The notes below the pieces were generated by a model, which was not told the origin of the DNA, made no database searches, and saw only the letters and a program-made list of their open reading frames with translations. A stretch of DNA of 47,047 nucleotides, taken from the NCBI GenBank assembly GCA_016183815.1, contig JACPDW010000004.1:1-47047 (forward strand). The letters run 5' to 3'. This DNA is from Flavobacteriia bacterium. GTDB lineage: Bacteria; Bacteroidota; Bacteroidia; Flavobacteriales_D; Crocinitomicaceae. Of this stretch, positions 3,656 through 28,189 are shown piece by piece. A program made the position numbers and the translations under genes. How positions within the stretch are numbered: the first letter of the stretch is position 1; each line of letters begins with the position of its first letter.

Positions 3656-4990
3656 ATGCCCAACTACATACACAACTGAAATATTAACTCGTTAAAGCAT
3701 GAAGCTAACATTAATAGTAGTTTTATTGTTCCTTATTAAAGGCTTGTATTCACAAGAACTATTAAAAATTGATGATTTAGAAATAGAAACTGGAAATTTT
3801 AAAAACTTTAGCTCGCTTAAAGAGGAACTAAAAGGAGTAAAGATTGTTTCATTAGGTGAAGGAAATCATTATATGGGGACAACTTTTAAAACAAAGGTTG
3901 CCATGATAAAATACTTGCACGATAGCCTTAATTTTGACGTTATTGCTTTTGAATCTGGTCTGTATGATTGTAAAGTCACTAATGATTCATTACAAATAGT
4001 AACCTCTACACAAGAACTTTTTTTTGATGGGCTTTTTGGGGTTTGGAAATGTGATGAAGTAAAGGTATTATATGACTATCTAGCTCAAAACAACAATCAA
4101 GAAAACAATCCAATAGATCTTATCGGTATTGACAATCAACTTTTAGGAAATTCAAAGAAATTCTTAAAAGCTGACTTTGACCAATTATTTGATTCTTTGC
4201 AATATTATACCTCTAAAATAATTGAAAGTGACCGTTTTTATAGCATTTTGGACGAAGTGATTCGAACTTCTAATTTCAAGCAAAATTTTAGTATTGATGA
4301 CACAATTTATTTTAGTGGAAAACTCAGAAAAATAAATCATATTATTGACGAGTATCATCTCGAAAATCGACCATATTACCAGTTTTGGAAACAACTTTGT
4401 AAGAATATCAACAGCGATTATACACGTATGTATTTTCAACCATTCGGAGCAATTCGCGACTCAATGATGTATGAAAATTTGAAATGGTATATGGAGCTTT
4501 ATCCTGAAAAAAAAATCATATTATGGGCAGCATCAGGGCATCTTATGTTTGAGCCTCGAAATAATAATTCTAATAATAAACCTATGGGTACATACCTGAA
4601 AAACAATTTCAAAGAACAATACTATGCAATTGTTTTTACTGCATATAAAGGAAAATATGGCAACAAAGACAAAGGTTTACTATCTTTTAAAATAAAAAAA
4701 TCTACAGAAAAGAGCATTGAACATTATATCCATAAAAATTATTTCGGAAATTTTGCTCTATTCTCATTAAGGAACAATAAGAACAAAGAATTTATCGAGC
4801 AACAAAATATAACTCATGTAAAGATTGGTAGAAATGAAAACTTAATGATTCCATTTGAGTTTGCAGATGCACTTTTTTATATCAAAGAAATGCATGCACC
4901 AACATATTTTTTTAAAGAAATGAAAAAAAATTAAATACTACAAAAAAAAGACTATCCAATTTAACAAATAAAAAAAATGATGGGCATAAC
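3654..4990 (+). mobile_element. Integron-like gene cassette 3
   Basis: Bases 3653-3662 (GTTATGCCCA) are the exact reverse complement of 4981-4990 (TGGGCATAAC). The unit holds one + strand gene. Boundaries were set by where similarity among junctions starts and stops. Confidence 0.7.
3699..4934 (+). CDS. Erythromycin esterase-like protein (exported)
   Basis: The 411-residue protein has an N-terminal signal peptide (MKLTLIVVLLFLIKGLYS, about 1-18) and no lipobox, so it is probably periplasmic. The core resembles the erythromycin esterase (Ere) superfamily. 'LGEGNHYMG' at about 52-60 corresponds to the family's LGE..H motif, 'VIAFESG' (about 81-87) to the conserved acidic strand, and 'LWAASGHLMF' late in the protein to the second His region. 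Most chromosomal members have not been shown to hydrolyse macrolides, so resistance should not be assumed. It is the sole gene of cassette 3; ATG 3699 is 46 bases after the cassette start. Confidence 0.75.
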   Translation: MKLTLIVVLLFLIKGLYSQELLKIDDLEIETGNFKNFSSLKEELKGVKIVSLGEGNHYMGTTFKTKVAMIKYLHDSLNFDVIAFESGLYDCKVTNDSLQIVTSTQELFFDGLFGVWKCDEVKVLYDYLAQNNNQENNPIDLIGIDNQLLGNSKKFLKADFDQLFDSLQYYTSKIIESDRFYSILDEVIRTSNFKQNFSIDDTIYFSGKLRKINHIIDEYHLENRPYYQFWKQLCKNINSDYTRMYFQPFGAIRDSMMYENLKWYMELYPEKKIILWAASGHLMFEPRNNNSNNKPMGTYLKNNFKEQYYAIVFTAYKGKYGNKDKGLLSFKIKKSTEKSIEHYIHKNYFGNFALFSLRNNKNKEFIEQQNITHVKIGRNENLMIPFEFADALFYIKEMHAPTYFFKEMKKN

Positions 4991-23362: not shown

Positions 23363-24188
23363 TTAAAAAAGACTTATTTGACTTTCAATTTTAGGGTGAA
23401 AAGTTCCAATTATCATAAAAGGATTTTTACCAGTTAAATGATGTAGCTGTGATGTTCCTAAAAACAAATGTATATCTTTTGTTTTAGCAAAATCATGAAA
23501 GTATTTTTTCTTAACATCTTCAACTGCTTTTGCTTCGTTTCCTTCGTGACGAGAAAGACAATTCCAGTAAAGTTGTCCTATTTCCCAATCTTCAATCATC
23601 ATCTTACTTTTTTTCCCGTTACAATCAAGTAAAACATAAGAAAATTTGTATGGAAGTTTTCTAACAATTTCAAATAGATCTTCATCTTCTTGAGCAAACA
23701 AGTTAGTACTTCTGTCATGCTTCAACTTTTCTAGTTTACTTTTATCCCATTCTCTTTCAGCTACTTCAATTGTGAAATCTATAATTTTGCTTGGTTTGAA
23801 AACAGCAAGAGAAGTCATTTTTTCTCTATTTTTTGCATCGGAAATAAGTTCATTTATATCAGAGTAAATTTTATTTTTGAATACTATTTCTTTTCGTAAT
23901 AACCAATTACTTTTGGTATCTAAATGTCCTAATATTTTTATTTCAGTGTCATATGAAATTGGTCTAAAACTTTCTTTTCTAAAATCACTTTTGTTTTTAA
24001 CAAGATCTATTTCAATCCAATCATATTTTTTGTATTGCTGTTCAAAAGAATTTTTTTCGGAACTGAATTGGGTATATTCTAATCCAAGAGCCATCTTCAA
24101 GAAAACCAGCTGTACAAACTAATTCATCATATTTAGCTGAAATAGTAGGGTACGTTTTTACAGTGATTAAAACCTTTGTTTTTGCCAT
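23363..24188 (-). pseudogene. Dual-OB domain protein, broken by a one-base frameshift
   Basis: The native start is ATG at 24186-24188, giving 'MAKTKVLITVKTYPTISAKY', then 'DELVCTAGFLEDGSWIRIYP' and 'IQF'. The reading frame then breaks at a run of seven A (minus strand; T run at 24051-24057). Dropping one A joins it to the downstream 'NSFEQQYKKYDWIEIDLVKN' and the rest of the protein. The combined protein (about 275 residues) looks like the Dual-OB family found beside DUF488 proteins. It lies one base after the DUF488 stop. It is either a real pseudogene, a phase-variable tract, or a sequencing error. Confidence 0.75.
24051..24057. other. Homopolymer tract at the frameshift in the Dual-OB gene
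   Basis: Seven T on the + strand (seven A in the coding strand) mark the exact site where the reading frame changes. Six would restore one ORF. Confidence 0.8.
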
Positions 24189-24189
24189 T

Positions 24190-25080
24190 TTAAATATGTT
24201 TTATTTTATACTTAAAATTAGGTAATTGTTCTATCGCTTCTGCTAAATGTTTTCGATGACACTGACAAATATTTGCTTCAAAACACGTCAAAGCAATACG
24301 TTTTTTTTCATGCAACAAACTCAATATTTTTTCTTGTATTAATTTGGTATTTACTAAATTATTTTCACGGTAAATTACAAACAATTTGTCGTAATCACTT
24401 TGGTTTTTAAGTTCTTGCCTGTGTTCTGATTGAATCCCAACTTCGGGAAAATGTAAATAATCTATTCCAAGACTAGTGCAGTAACGTATTAATTGACTTT
24501 TACTAAATCCATATTTCATACTTATTGGATTACGACGAACATCAATTAATAATTTTATATCATTTTTAATTAATCGATTTAAATATTCTTCTAATGAAAT
24601 ACCTTCATAACCAATAGTAAATAAAGTTATTTCATTATAATTTGGACGGCATAAATCTACTTTTTCAAGTTCTTTAGATGATAAAATATCTTTGGCTTTC
24701 AAACTATTAATTGCCCAATACGGAAAGTTAAGGTAAGTATGTTTCATCAAAGCATTAGCATTCATTTTTCCATAATGAACCTTTATTTCCATCAATTGCT
24801 TTTTGTCAGTATCCTTTAGTAAATTGAAATAATCTATAGTTTCATTACTTGTAAAATGGCTTGAAGTTTCTGAAAGTATCCCTTTTTTAACCATCGTAGT
24901 TAAATCGGCATTTGCAGAATAGGAATAACAGCCGAATCGATATGGAATAAAATCATATTCAGCTTTGTTTTGTCGTTGAGTAAATAAAAATAATAATTTT
25001 TGGAAGCTAATTTTATCAATTGCACCATTAAAAATTTGTAGTAATGCTAATATAATTTTTCTTCTATAATACATATTCAC
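24190..25080 (-). CDS. DUF488 family protein with extra N-terminal domain
   Basis: The C-terminal half (about 150-296) of this 296-residue protein is DUF488: 'LFTIGYEGISLEEYLNRLI', 'LLIDVRRNPISMKYGFSKSQ', 'YLHFPEVGI' and the cysteine/His motif 'CFEANICQCHRKHLAEAI'. The N-terminal half ('ISFQKLLFLF', 'YDFIPYRFGCYSYSANADLT', 'MVKKGIL') resembles the KLLY..GP-type domain of Panacea/SocA-like antitoxins, a weak match. DUF488 is an uncharacterised putative enzyme family seen in defence-rich loci. The Dual-OB gene follows after a single base, so both belong to one operon. Confidence 0.8.
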   Translation of the reverse strand: MNMYYRRKIILALLQIFNGAIDKISFQKLLFLFTQRQNKAEYDFIPYRFGCYSYSANADLTTMVKKGILSETSSHFTSNETIDYFNLLKDTDKKQLMEIKVHYGKMNANALMKHTYLNFPYWAINSLKAKDILSSKELEKVDLCRPNYNEITLFTIGYEGISLEEYLNRLIKNDIKLLIDVRRNPISMKYGFSKSQLIRYCTSLGIDYLHFPEVGIQSEHRQELKNQSDYDKLFVIYRENNLVNTKLIQEKILSLLHEKKRIALTCFEANICQCHRKHLAEAIEQLPNFKYKIKHI

Positions 25081-25166: not shown

Positions 25167-26069
25167 CTATTCCTTCAAAAAGCCATATTCATACACCTTC
25201 GGTTTGATTTTATCGGCTAAAACAGAAAGTTTGCTTCGTAATTCACCAATTAAATTCATATAGGTTTCATCGTTGCTTTTGGAGTTCATTCGGCCTTGTT
25301 CGTTTCTACCTTGGAAATATTCACGAATATCGTACAAACTCGCGTTGACATTTACGTCTTTTTGAGCATGGTAATACTTCCATAATTCCCTGCCGGCATC
25401 AAAAACAGCAGTGGCTTCTGGCGAAAATTTGAGTAACTTACTTTTCACCTCCTGTGTAGGGGTATCACTTTGTGATGGGGTGGTCACCCCACTCTTTACT
25501 TCATCCTTATTTGAAAAAGAAGGATGTTTTTCTAACATATTTAAAACACCTGAAAGGTTATTTTTTACCTCTTCAACTTGAATACGAATGATTTTTAAAC
25601 CCAAATCTTCCATGTATGCATCACGTTTGGCATCATATTCTTTTTTATCATCGTGGCTACTTCCATCGATTTCAATCACTACATTATTATTTGTACAATA
25701 GAAATCAACGATGTAGTTTCCTATTATTTTTTGTCTATCAAAGTCTAAACCGTTGAAAGATTTGTTTTTAACTGCTTTCCAAAATAAAACTTCAGCCAAA
25801 TTTCCTGCTTTACGTAATTCTTTTGCTCTTTCTATTAATTTAGGATTATAAGGTAAATCAAAATAGTTTTTACTATTTCGAAATTTATTGACTATGCTGT
25901 CTTGGGTGGATTGATCAATAGAAGAATAGACCTCTACGTCCTGCGGACACCCCTCCAAAGGAGTATTGACCACCCCGTCCTGCGGACACCCCTCCAAAGG
26001 AGTATTGACCACCCCGTCCTGCGGACACCCCTCCAAAGGAGTATTGACCACCCCGTCCTGCGGACACAT
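25167..26069 (-). CDS. DUF559 (Vsr-like) nuclease fused to the C-terminus of the upstream methylase
   Basis: The 300-residue ORF starts at ATG 26069, inside the 39-bp repeats ('CPQDGVVNTPLEG' units). A DUF559 endonuclease-like domain follows (about 70-180: 'LRKAGNLAEVLFWKAVKNKS', 'GNYIVDFYCTNNNVVIEIDG', 'DLGLKIIRIQVEEV'). It ends with a segment that reads as the lost C-terminus of the upstream methylase ('FDAGRELWKYYHAQKDVNV', 'SLYDIREYFQGRNEQGRMN', 'YEYGFLKE'). Its frame is -1 relative to the methylase. Either it is made as a separate protein or slippage in the repeats joins the two. Confidence 0.7.
   Translation of the reverse strand: MCPQDGVVNTPLEGCPQDGVVNTPLEGCPQDGVVNTPLEGCPQDVEVYSSIDQSTQDSIVNKFRNSKNYFDLPYNPKLIERAKELRKAGNLAEVLFWKAVKNKSFNGLDFDRQKIIGNYIVDFYCTNNNVVIEIDGSSHDDKKEYDAKRDAYMEDLGLKIIRIQVEEVKNNLSGVLNMLEKHPSFSNKDEVKSGVTTPSQSDTPTQEVKSKLLKFSPEATAVFDAGRELWKYYHAQKDVNVNASLYDIREYFQGRNEQGRMNSKSNDETYMNLIGELRSKLSVLADKIKPKVYEYGFLKE
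25446..26067 (-). mobile_element. DUF559-encoding insertion in the restriction-methylase gene
   Basis: The insertion separates methylase residues ending '...QGKIKPQ' from those resuming 'KLLKFSPEA'. The minus-strand left end consists of 39-bp units (25938-26067). The other end, 25446-25484, is an inverted, diverged copy of the same unit, sharing GGGGTGGT and CACCTCCT-type blocks. This gives terminal inverted repeats around a nuclease gene, as in a mobile or selfish element. Exact ends were estimated by eye. Confidence 0.55.
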
Positions 26070-28189
26070 AGGTCGATGTTTTCTGCTTGTGGTTTAATTT
26101 TTCCTTGAATAAAATCTGTCATAAAATGGCTCTCAAAACGGTTTTGGGCATTTACTTCTTGCTCTGTGAAAGGAATCCAATGGTTACTGCCTTCACTGCT
26201 TGTTATTCTGTTTTGACCATGAAATAAAGCATACGCTAAACAATCGTTTTGAAATTCTACATCTGTTTGCCAACCCTCATTGGGAAATAAAAATTGGTCT
26301 CGGTCGTTGAGCCAAGAGGAATCAATACATTGTCTAACTGTAAGATAAACAACGCAAACTGTTATATTTGATAAAGTAATTGTAAATTTACCATCACCTC
26401 CCAAAACCACTTGATCATATTGGACAAATCTAATTCTTGCTTGATGTTGGAAATCATTACTATTAAATATCAATTTTCCTACTGGAGAATTATTGTTTTT
26501 AAATTTTGTTAACCAATTGTTTAAGAATAATGAATTGTCATAGGTTGAAAATCCTTTGAACCCAATTAACTCGTTATTATAATCAAATACATCAGCTTTT
26601 ATGAATGAAAAGATTTCTTTTTTTGATGTATCATAAAGGTGAAATCCTATAGGAAATTTGCCTTTGACATTATCAAAAGTATCTGCAGGAGTAATAAATA
26701 ACTTTTCTAATTTAGCTTTAAATAATTGTCTCATTAACAAAAAATCAGGTGCATTTAACATTTTTAATTTTGAAAAGACACCAATTTTACAATTTTGAAT
26801 TTCTATGTAAATTCTATAAAGAAATTGAATGTATAATTCATCCTTTGCACCACCAATTTCCTCACGACGCCAATTAGTATCAGCAACTCCAAGACCTCTT
26901 TTATAAGGTGGATTAATATAAACCACCAACTTTTTGCGTTTTTCTTCGTGGCTGATAATCTCAAACAAACTATCGGGCATTTTTCCTCCTTTAGAAGCAG
27001 GTATAAAATCATCGTTTAAGAAATCAAACTGAAACACGTGGTTTTTTAACAAATTGGCTCCGTGATCAATGCGTTCGTGCATCACATTAATATCGGCTTG
27101 GTCTAAAGTGCTGGCGTAGATGTTGTATTTGTTGGTTAATCCTGCTAATAGATTTCCTGTACCTGCTGCACAATCCCAAATAAAGTAATCGTCTTGCCAA
27201 TTTTCGCCCAAATAATCGGTGAGGTATTTTTGCGAAAGTTCCACCCAAATACGAGGTGTAAAAAATGCTCCTTTACGTTCCCGAATGTCTTGAGGAACGA
27301 GTAAATCTCTACGTTCAATGATGTAATCTTGAAATTCTTTTATTGGAGGTCGTTTGTAGCGTTTCCAAAATTGTTGGTAGGTGTCTTTGTTTTTCAGATT
27401 AATGGTAGCATCAAACATTTGCTTGATGTTTTCTTTGGCAATTTTATAACCTTGGTTTTGAAATACAACAAATAAGCTGTCACGAATTGTTTGGTCGTCC
27501 TCAATGATTTGTGTGTCTTTATCGTCCACAAACAAATCGGCTAAATAAAAATCATTATCGAGAATATTAGCTTTTTTCAGTTCGTCCCAATTCACATTAA
27601 TGATTGGTTTCACTATTTCGAGCCAGCGTAAATAAATAGGTATAAAATTATTTTTATCAATTTTTAATTTACTATTTGTGTTTGCATTTGTTAAGGAGTT
27701 TTTAATAAATATTCTTAATTCTTTTTCCTCTTTAATATAATCAAAAACGGTCGAATTTTGCTTTAGTGTATTTTCAATACGATCTTTAATAAGCTGAAAT
27801 TCTTTACTTTCATGATTACTGGGAGTTACATTCCAATTAAAATCATTGAGGTAAAAAATATCTTGTACACTTAAATAAGGTACAAATGCAATTTTTTTGA
27901 AATCAAAAGCACCAAGAAAAGCTGGCGGCATGGTTTTATCAAAAGTGCGAGCTTTACCAATGGTTAAAATAAGTTGCACAAACATCGTTGGAATGTCAAA
28001 ATCTCCCGTTTTCGCTTCTGCCCATAGGAGAGGAGTTCGTCCAAATAAATTGTCTTGTTTCGGAAAAACAGTAAAGTCGATGTTTCCAATAATTTCGGTG
28101 CTATCAAAATTTTTGAACCAATCGGCTCCCACTTTATTTTTTAATTCTTCTTCACGAATGTTTTTGTATTTCATATTAATAATTTTCAA
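25934..28189 (-). CDS. Type IIG-like restriction-modification protein (adenine-N6 methyltransferase), interrupted
   Basis: The N-terminal region of the 751-residue ORF has a possible PD-(D/E)xK nuclease core ('NIDFTVF' then 'LLWAEAKTGDFD', about 40-60). The methyltransferase has SAM motif I 'WDCAAGTGNLLAGL' and catalytic 'NPPYKRG', which indicate N6-adenine methylation. 'QDIRERKGAFFTPRIWVEL' is typical of Type IIG/Eco57I-like enzymes. The native frame is lost after 'QGKIKPQAENIDL'; the last ~45 residues are translated repeats. The C-terminal piece continues in the next ORF. Whether the enzyme still works is unclear. Confidence 0.8.
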   Translation of the reverse strand: MKIINMKYKNIREEELKNKVGADWFKNFDSTEIIGNIDFTVFPKQDNLFGRTPLLWAEAKTGDFDIPTMFVQLILTIGKARTFDKTMPPAFLGAFDFKKIAFVPYLSVQDIFYLNDFNWNVTPSNHESKEFQLIKDRIENTLKQNSTVFDYIKEEKELRIFIKNSLTNANTNSKLKIDKNNFIPIYLRWLEIVKPIINVNWDELKKANILDNDFYLADLFVDDKDTQIIEDDQTIRDSLFVVFQNQGYKIAKENIKQMFDATINLKNKDTYQQFWKRYKRPPIKEFQDYIIERRDLLVPQDIRERKGAFFTPRIWVELSQKYLTDYLGENWQDDYFIWDCAAGTGNLLAGLTNKYNIYASTLDQADINVMHERIDHGANLLKNHVFQFDFLNDDFIPASKGGKMPDSLFEIISHEEKRKKLVVYINPPYKRGLGVADTNWRREEIGGAKDELYIQFLYRIYIEIQNCKIGVFSKLKMLNAPDFLLMRQLFKAKLEKLFITPADTFDNVKGKFPIGFHLYDTSKKEIFSFIKADVFDYNNELIGFKGFSTYDNSLFLNNWLTKFKNNNSPVGKLIFNSNDFQHQARIRFVQYDQVVLGGDGKFTITLSNITVCVVYLTVRQCIDSSWLNDRDQFLFPNEGWQTDVEFQNDCLAYALFHGQNRITSSEGSNHWIPFTEQEVNAQNRFESHFMTDFIQGKIKPQAENIDLCVRRTGWSILLWRGVRRTGWSILLWRGVRRTGWSILLWRGVRRT
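25938..26067. repeat. 39-bp direct repeats, 3.3 copies
   Basis: Units lie at 25938-25976, 25977-26015 and 26016-26054, with a 13-base partial at 26055-26067. Each begins GTCCTGCGGACACCCCTCCA on the + strand. The length is a multiple of three, so both overlapping minus-strand frames stay open: one gives 'CPQDGVVNTPLEG', the other 'VRRTGWSILLWRG'. The GC-rich units stand out from the AT-rich background. Confidence 0.9.

Follow-up and report, generated by a model that had tools for sequence, protein, structure and literature searches.

The insert in a methylase-like gene of the window—the whole stretch of 47,047 nucleotides of Flavobacteriia bacterium DNA analysed here—is probably a copy of a mobile element in which a DUF559 nuclease gene is enclosed by structured DNA units, those at the far end being inverted, with the nuclease probably also spreading solo units. 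This reading, drawn from sequence comparison, builds on the insertion itself, matched inverted structured ends, co-divergence of the ends with the nuclease tree, a multi-copy sister element, and the nuclease fold, all of which were observed. The repeats are members of a dispersed, structured repeat family, a point missed by the first-pass annotation of this DNA. The pairing of DUF559 with triplex-forming repeats is widespread and apparently undescribed; in a search limited to one open-access library, no terminal palindromic or triplex units were found to be reported in the DUF559 literature.

The insert and its nuclease

The interrupted gene and the insert are laid out as follows.

26070–28189, minus strand: 5′ part of the host gene, about 706 codons from a TTG start (ORF list; tblastn homologues 44–70% identical)
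25167–26069, minus strand: second ORF, 300 aa, with its ATG at 26069 (ORF list)
25937–26067, minus strand: 39-bp tandem array, 3.4 copies, 100% match, forming the 5′ terminal units of the element (Tandem Repeats Finder)
25934–26069, minus strand: 136-nt stretch shared by the two ORFs, which read it in different frames (ORF list)
25533–25835, minus strand: DUF559 nuclease domain with a predicted Vsr/EDxHD-like PD-(D/E)XK fold (PF04480; AF2 model; Foldseek)
25446–25494, plus strand: inverted, diverged 3′ terminal unit, with the hairpin ATCAC-TTT-GTGAT followed by GGGGTGGT
25167–25445, minus strand: native 3′ end of the host gene, some 90 codons read in the same frame as DUF559 (homologue alignment)

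The host ORF, listed from 28189 to 25934 on the minus strand and encoding a methylase-like protein, runs beyond the L codon of 'ENIDL' into the 39-bp tandem repeat, out of frame, and stops at 25934. The second ORF contains, in order, a repeat-coded leader, the DUF559 domain, a repeat-coded tail, and the native methylase C-terminus; the part after the insert, FDAGRELWKYYHAQ...YEYGFLKE, aligns with homologues, confirming the earlier suggestion that the native C-terminus continues past DUF559. The limits of the element lie at about 25446–26067. The 39-bp unit amounts to 13 codons and is stop-free in all three minus-strand frames, so that the frame is independent of copy number. The host gene today is two overlapping out-of-frame ORFs, the second of which holds both the nuclease and the native C-terminus. 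The earlier suggestion that the 3′ part of the host gene stays translated has parallels at other loci, where insertions in HsdR, HsdM, LeuRS, and MetH leave both host parts in a single ORF; in the window copy, with its host gene divided between frames, the second ORF may be translated from its own ATG at 26069.

The host is a probable N6-adenine methylase, judging from its sequence. The methylase motifs DCAAGTG... and NPPY, spotted by eye, are the basis of the label of restriction methylase given to it initially; Pfam, NCBIfam, and PADLOC gave no family match for the gene. Two downstream genes at 23363–25080 (minus strand) match two families of candidate defence genes in PADLOC, PDC-M19B (E = 9e-94) and PDC-M19A (DUF488, E = 2e-126), and these neighbors place the interrupted gene in a probable defence locus.

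Homologous methylase loci, obtained from one scan, were aligned across the junction. DUF559 is absent in all 22 homologue rows showing both sides of the linker (L009–L012 and L014–L030, with L022 represented twice), in which 'GK..' leads directly to 'FSxxA'. Two rows were left out—L013, the upstream side of which is not a methylase, and L031, which is without the linker—and DUF559 is absent in both. The domain is thus an insertion and not a native fusion, as the first-pass annotation had proposed, and no homologue with a native fusion was found. That the methylase family had a DUF559 domain at this linker all along would fit the single frame shared by the domain and the host C-terminus, but has a vanishingly small probability in view of the 22 rows, which refute it for the relatives examined. 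At the nucleotide level, no clean empty site was found for the window element from which exact ends or a target-site duplication, as for a DDE-type insertion sequence, could be read; the insert codes for DUF559 only.

The methylase linker collects different repeat families. In three homologues (L017, L025, and L029), a single in-frame unit of the same kind as those of the element, 42–48 nt long, is located in another nearby loop. The L011 homologue carries an unrelated repeat (QPELVSGSNEMLKRVQHD... in the protein) in the identical linker, before the match at 4001–4381, and the L030 homologue (1126–1530) carries a tandem in-frame repeat of a different family (peptide of the NVAFSSTSLTERKRDGYNV type) in an AQK/NVNAS loop.

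The DUF559 domain of the window (residues 79–179) matches PF04480 with an E value of 1.1e-30 and 106.2 bits, the curated cut-off being 20.6, and is intact with its conserved residues present. Over 19 aligned rows, D59 and E70 (numbering of the aligned 121-aa domain) are invariant, and Y56, D72, G73, and H76 are nearly so. The AF2 model of the domain, built from 19 sequences, has a pLDDT of 82.6 and was matched by Foldseek to 3hrl, a DUF559 structure (2.1e-5), I-Bth0305I (3r3p, 4.9e-4), PvuRts1I (7.7e-3), and, weakly, Vsr (0.19). I-Bth0305I was also matched by sequence (HMM 0.0032), and its entry 3r3p bears the PDB name 'mobile intron protein'. By predicted fold and sequence together, the DUF559 nuclease is homologous to this EDxHD homing endonuclease. 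Previously, YcjD has been placed in the PD-(D/E)XK superfamily (PMC1189080), a DUF559 gene has been assigned to the EDxHD homing family (PMC9403480), and a Caulobacter DUF559 protein has been proposed as a Vsr-like repair enzyme (PMC12907096).

Structured units at the ends of DUF559 genes

The arrangement described initially—39-bp repeats at one end of the insert and an inverted, diverged copy at the other—was confirmed by Tandem Repeats Finder and pattern matches. Each unit of the tandem array contains a hairpin (GTCC-GCA-GGAC), GGGGTGG, and then a decayed hairpin (CTCC-TTT-GGAG). The core of the inverted unit, GGGGTATCACTTTGTGATGGGGTGGT on the plus strand at 25459–25484, corresponds to GGGGTGTCCGCAGGACGGGGTGGT on the minus strand at 25969–25992 and 26008–26031, and this pattern (type A) has just three matches in the 3.24-Mb genome, all within the window element. 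The 5′ and 3′ units differ chiefly in their hairpin arms, GTCC/GGAC versus ATCAC/GTGAT, with complementarity kept.

In relatives, the canonical unit reads CCCCTCC-NNN-GGAGGGG-TG-hairpin-GGGGTGG, with a second hairpin that varies in sequence and keeps its pairing. For the 41 distinct type-A units listed, the pairs of this hairpin form in 87.2% of cells, as compared with 68.9% after shuffling (76.8% at maximum), and all four pairs form in 30 units, as compared with a shuffled mean of 8.8 and a maximum of 16; this 41-unit recount pairs by position because MAFFT misplaced loop gaps. Covariation in the second hairpin, determined for 33 of the 41 listed units, was 0.525, versus 0.112 for shuffled units. 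Other DUF559 clades have other tails (GGGGGAGGA, GGGGTGTG, GGGAGGTGA, and more).

Holder et al. (2015; PMC4666352) describe intrastrand triplex motifs (TM, ITxF), which consist of a hairpin and a mirrored G-rich strand, as abundant in bacteria. In the canonical unit, GGAGGGG pairs with the C-rich arm and is mirrored by GGGGTGG, corresponding to the purine-motif intrastrand triplex defined there, and such motifs were found at 55 of 59 loci of relatives, but not in the window copy. A strict triplex finder scored no unit in the window copy, because the C-rich arm is lost or mutated, down to CTCC; the window units thus read as a partly decayed form of the canonical unit of relatives.

The association of units with DUF559 was quantified at 59 loci, which are what remained of 65 after removal of 6 with short flanks and which were best-scoring matches rather than a random draw, some being close copies (L035–L037). 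At least one unit was found within 350 nt of the domain at 55 of these loci, with the window locus as one of the four misses, as compared with 18 of 1200 control windows; the controls were natural windows, taken from 20 of the same genomes (20 stretches, each of 20 kb), and not matched for intergenic DNA. A forward unit upstream together with a reverse unit downstream was present at 33 of the 59 loci, and an inverted-repeat score above 28, the 99th percentile of the controls, at 38 of the 59 versus 9 of 1200. Where both ends could be typed, the same unit (tail) type occurred at both in 24 of 28 loci, with 4.9 expected. Moreover, tail type changed 11 times on the DUF559 tree versus 28.3 times when shuffled, on a tree of 61 domains (46 typed rows) with few columns and unsettled bootstrap.

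In a second set, collected with the generic Pfam model alone, units were found at 19 of 21 canonical DUF559 loci, but at none of 6 low-scoring relatives; this set omits L270 (an incomplete locus) as well as L269 (the window) and L277 (G259), the elements of which had already been counted. Away from the domain, 6 of 126 windows of 350 nt from these 21 loci contained a unit. On viral contigs, 16 of 45 loci were examined: units accompany the five DUF559 loci that are closest, and 11 more distant nucleases are without them. The first-pass annotation had recommended a search for further DUF559 genes flanked by such units, and the two sets (55/59 and 19/21) show that many exist.

The association also extends to plasmids. 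For 12 of 45 matching records, from cyanobacteria, alphaproteobacteria, Deinococcus, and Photobacterium, G-rich palindromic units were seen by eye to adjoin the DUF559 gene in every case, and the inverted-repeat score exceeded the 99th percentile of shuffles at 9 of the 12 (not at L154, L159, or L162). On a Sphingomonas plasmid (L164), a DUF559 gene with inverted units is located between sufB and sufC. In E. coli K-12, a triplex motif lies 174 nt downstream of ycjD, a variable gene, with 3330 of 5426 E. coli genomes matching at least 80% of the ycjD region. The fabI–sapF gap of K-12 contains ycjD and the triplex motif, and that of two other E. coli strains contains a TetR-type regulator and efflux genes (L165, L285, and L286); a swap between eef and ycjD in E. 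coli is described in PMC12817139. Among 14 control genomes, DUF559 was found only in Caulobacter and Corynebacterium, with E. coli among the 14 and without DUF559.

Dispersal and in-frame placement

Of 240 genomes from the family, 83 contain type-B units, in 494 copies as compared with 5 for a reversed control pattern, and DUF559 was found in 76 of the 240. Units occur in 49 of the 76 genomes with DUF559 and in 34 of the 164 without (Fisher 9e-11, with this and the following p-values inflated by phylogenetic non-independence), so that DUF559 was not detected in 34 of the 83 genomes with type-B units. The link persists within strata of genus and size, with 49 genomes observed versus 36.2 expected and 0 of 10000 permutations reaching this value. 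A Y1/RAYT transposase was considered as the mover of the units and rejected. Y1 transposases correlate with units in unstratified counts (60 of 131 genomes with Y1 versus 23 of 109 without, p = 7e-5), and weakly among DUF559-free genomes (22 of 73 versus 12 of 91, p = 0.011), but are no independent predictor within the same strata (60 observed versus 58.8 expected, p = 0.39).

The genome of the window has three further DUF559 places, all with type-B units. For a sister DUF559 element in this genome, two contigs start inside copies that are identical at 339 of 341 nt and then continue into unrelated DNA; identity ends about 12 nt past the terminal unit, and the upstream half is absent from both contigs. 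With the type-A pattern confined to the window locus, mobility in the element's own genome is thus shown for another DUF559 clade. Two similar genes (on G000:C13 and G000:C44; L173 and L177) have a type-B unit at the same point but facing opposite ways, as though the units derived from an element that was formerly paired. Opposite-facing close doublets occur at 5 of 30 solo loci, a count in which the central unit was missed at 7 of the 30, and the idea of doublets remains weak.

Several solo type-B units of the window's genome lie in frame in genes, namely those for IleS, HsdM, SufD, and T9SS-sorted proteins. Outside this genome, none of 25 solo type-B units is in frame inside a gene, and in-frame placement is thus no general rule. 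The corresponding fractions are 10 of 27 for type A (including DUF559-bearing loci and the window), 5 of 8 in the window's genome, and 536 of 800 for random positions. An exact empty site in IleS was not obtained, owing to variation of the linker and the presence of other inserts in it, and no usable empty site was found for the S. meliloti plasmids among the matches listed. In the variable linker of IleS, a triplex unit is present in the window's genome (L178); L187 has a similar unit there, and the palindrome of L188 is a different one.

DUF559 itself is embedded in a single ORF between host domains in several proteins: HsdR (at one site in L007, L093, L097, and L098, and at another in L257), HsdM (L259), an Eco57I-type enzyme (L119), MetH (L046 and L261), and LeuRS (L255 and L267), the unit finder detecting no unit at L255. 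It is located at gene ends in ThiE (L100 and L103) and QueG (L110). Repeated sites are thus seen in HsdR (four records), LeuRS (two), and the MetH linker (two), and many other sites are used. Homing would lead to such reuse of a site, which could also come from common descent. On the Pseudanabaena galeata plasmid pPg_02 (L156), a single annotated CDS of 4.9 kb contains both DUF559 and its units, so that in-frame placement is also seen beyond Bacteroidota.

Proposed mechanism, alternatives, and related systems

Cleavage by DUF559 and transposition of the element are suggested by the association of nuclease and units. In the mechanism proposed, the DUF559 nuclease would recognize a folded or triplex-prone unit and cut or nick DNA at or beside it, after which host repair would copy or insert the element, or a solo unit, elsewhere. 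The triplex form may arise where DNA is single-stranded, as in replication. Solo units would be non-autonomous derivatives, by analogy with REPINs and RAYTs, and insertion would be tolerated in variable linkers, best with a length that is a multiple of three.

In an alternative account, another agent moves or generates the units, which are old repeats, and DUF559 genes home into them or recombine between them, using them as landing sites only. The fold resembling that of a homing endonuclease suits this account, as do the excess of units over DUF559 genes and their presence in 34 of 164 DUF559-free genomes, where Y1 transposases correlate with them (p = 0.011); in addition, segments with transposase and DUF559 have been described as repeated recombination hotspots in Legionella (PMC12308824). 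It is nonetheless unlikely, since unit type follows the nuclease tree (11 versus 28.3 changes), ends match at 24 of 28 loci, Y1 transposases have no explanatory value within genus and size strata, and the type-A pattern in the window's genome occurs only at the element itself. An account of DUF559 as a Vsr-like nuclease that serves repair or is an accessory to restriction, retained next to modification genes for this function and with the repeats being incidental, appears highly improbable. It would explain the proximity of the window gene to PDC-M19A/B, the restriction–modification character of several host genes, and the role proposed for the Caulobacter protein in PMC12907096, but not hosts such as MetH, LeuRS, ThiE, and QueG, the many intergenic loci, or units that adjoin 19 of 21 canonical DUF559 genes and none of 6 low-score relatives.

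A further possibility, tentative but deserving serious weight, concerns the window copy alone and is compatible with a mobile DUF559 element at the level of the family: the copy may be a dead relic, with the methylase broken and the split methylase and nuclease neither made nor used. The different frames of the host and insert ORFs, terminal units without a C-rich arm, and the occurrence of the type-A pattern here only all point in this direction. Against it, the DUF559 domain is undamaged and keeps its conserved residues, the C-terminal 90 codons are open and conserved, and the tandem copies are 100% identical, which indicates that the array is recent.

The mobile element favored here has partial counterparts among known systems. 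In REPIN–RAYT systems, an element of one gene is bounded on either side by short palindromic units, and further units are scattered through the genome. The DUF559 element is similar in its paired inverted palindromic units (33 of 59 loci) and dispersed type-B units (83 of 240 genomes), but its gene is a nuclease of the PD-(D/E)XK type and not a Y1 transposase. I-Bth0305I is located in a self-splicing intron. It and Vsr resemble DUF559 in fold, with a distant sequence match for the former and a weaker fold match for the latter; unlike the intron-borne I-Bth0305I, the DUF559 element is bounded by structured repeats, and nothing indicative of an intein splicing domain was seen in it. Rickettsia palindromic elements share with the DUF559 element the in-frame placement of palindromic repeats within genes, but are not known to encode a nuclease. 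The element also recalls inteins in that the nuclease domain lies in frame in host-protein linkers. An intein was nevertheless rejected, as the Pfam search found no Hint domain in the insert, which holds only DUF559/MTES_1575, or in ten further ORFs; without a splicing domain, the intein-like manner of insertion suggested initially does not apply to the mechanism, and the domain would stay in the protein. The unit sequence differs from the GTAG/CGTC-tagged REPs to which the title of PMC3733652 refers.

The triplex motifs of PMC4666352 share with the element units a C-rich arm, its complement, and a mirrored G-rich third strand, and inverted pairs occur among them. Many Bacteroidota units, unlike those motifs, have a second, covarying hairpin in the loop. 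The authors of PMC4666352 state that mobility genes, such as transposases or integrases, were never encountered by them next to the motifs in E. coli, and the words nuclease and endonuclease are absent from the text; unlike those motifs, the units here form the ends of DUF559 genes. DUF559 nucleases may, on balance, be the missing mobilizers of G/C-rich intrastrand-triplex repeats across bacteria, including E. coli. They would then represent a new minimal class of mobile element, with one Vsr/EDxHD-fold nuclease gene and triplex-forming ends, solo repeats as non-autonomous offspring, and in-frame insertion without splicing that extends to essential genes, including that for leucyl-tRNA synthetase. 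The pairing of DUF559 with the repeats may thus explain the spread of common bacterial triplex repeats, and the unit-flanked nuclease gene found in several phyla, including ycjD of K-12, is a testable candidate for the spreader. If this is true, a large family named for its unknown function would gain a role, and a nuclease gene would be able to persist within essential proteins with the help of neither an intein nor an intron.

Separately, the window contains a perfect 86-bp tandem duplication at 1186–1357 (2.0 copies, 100%).
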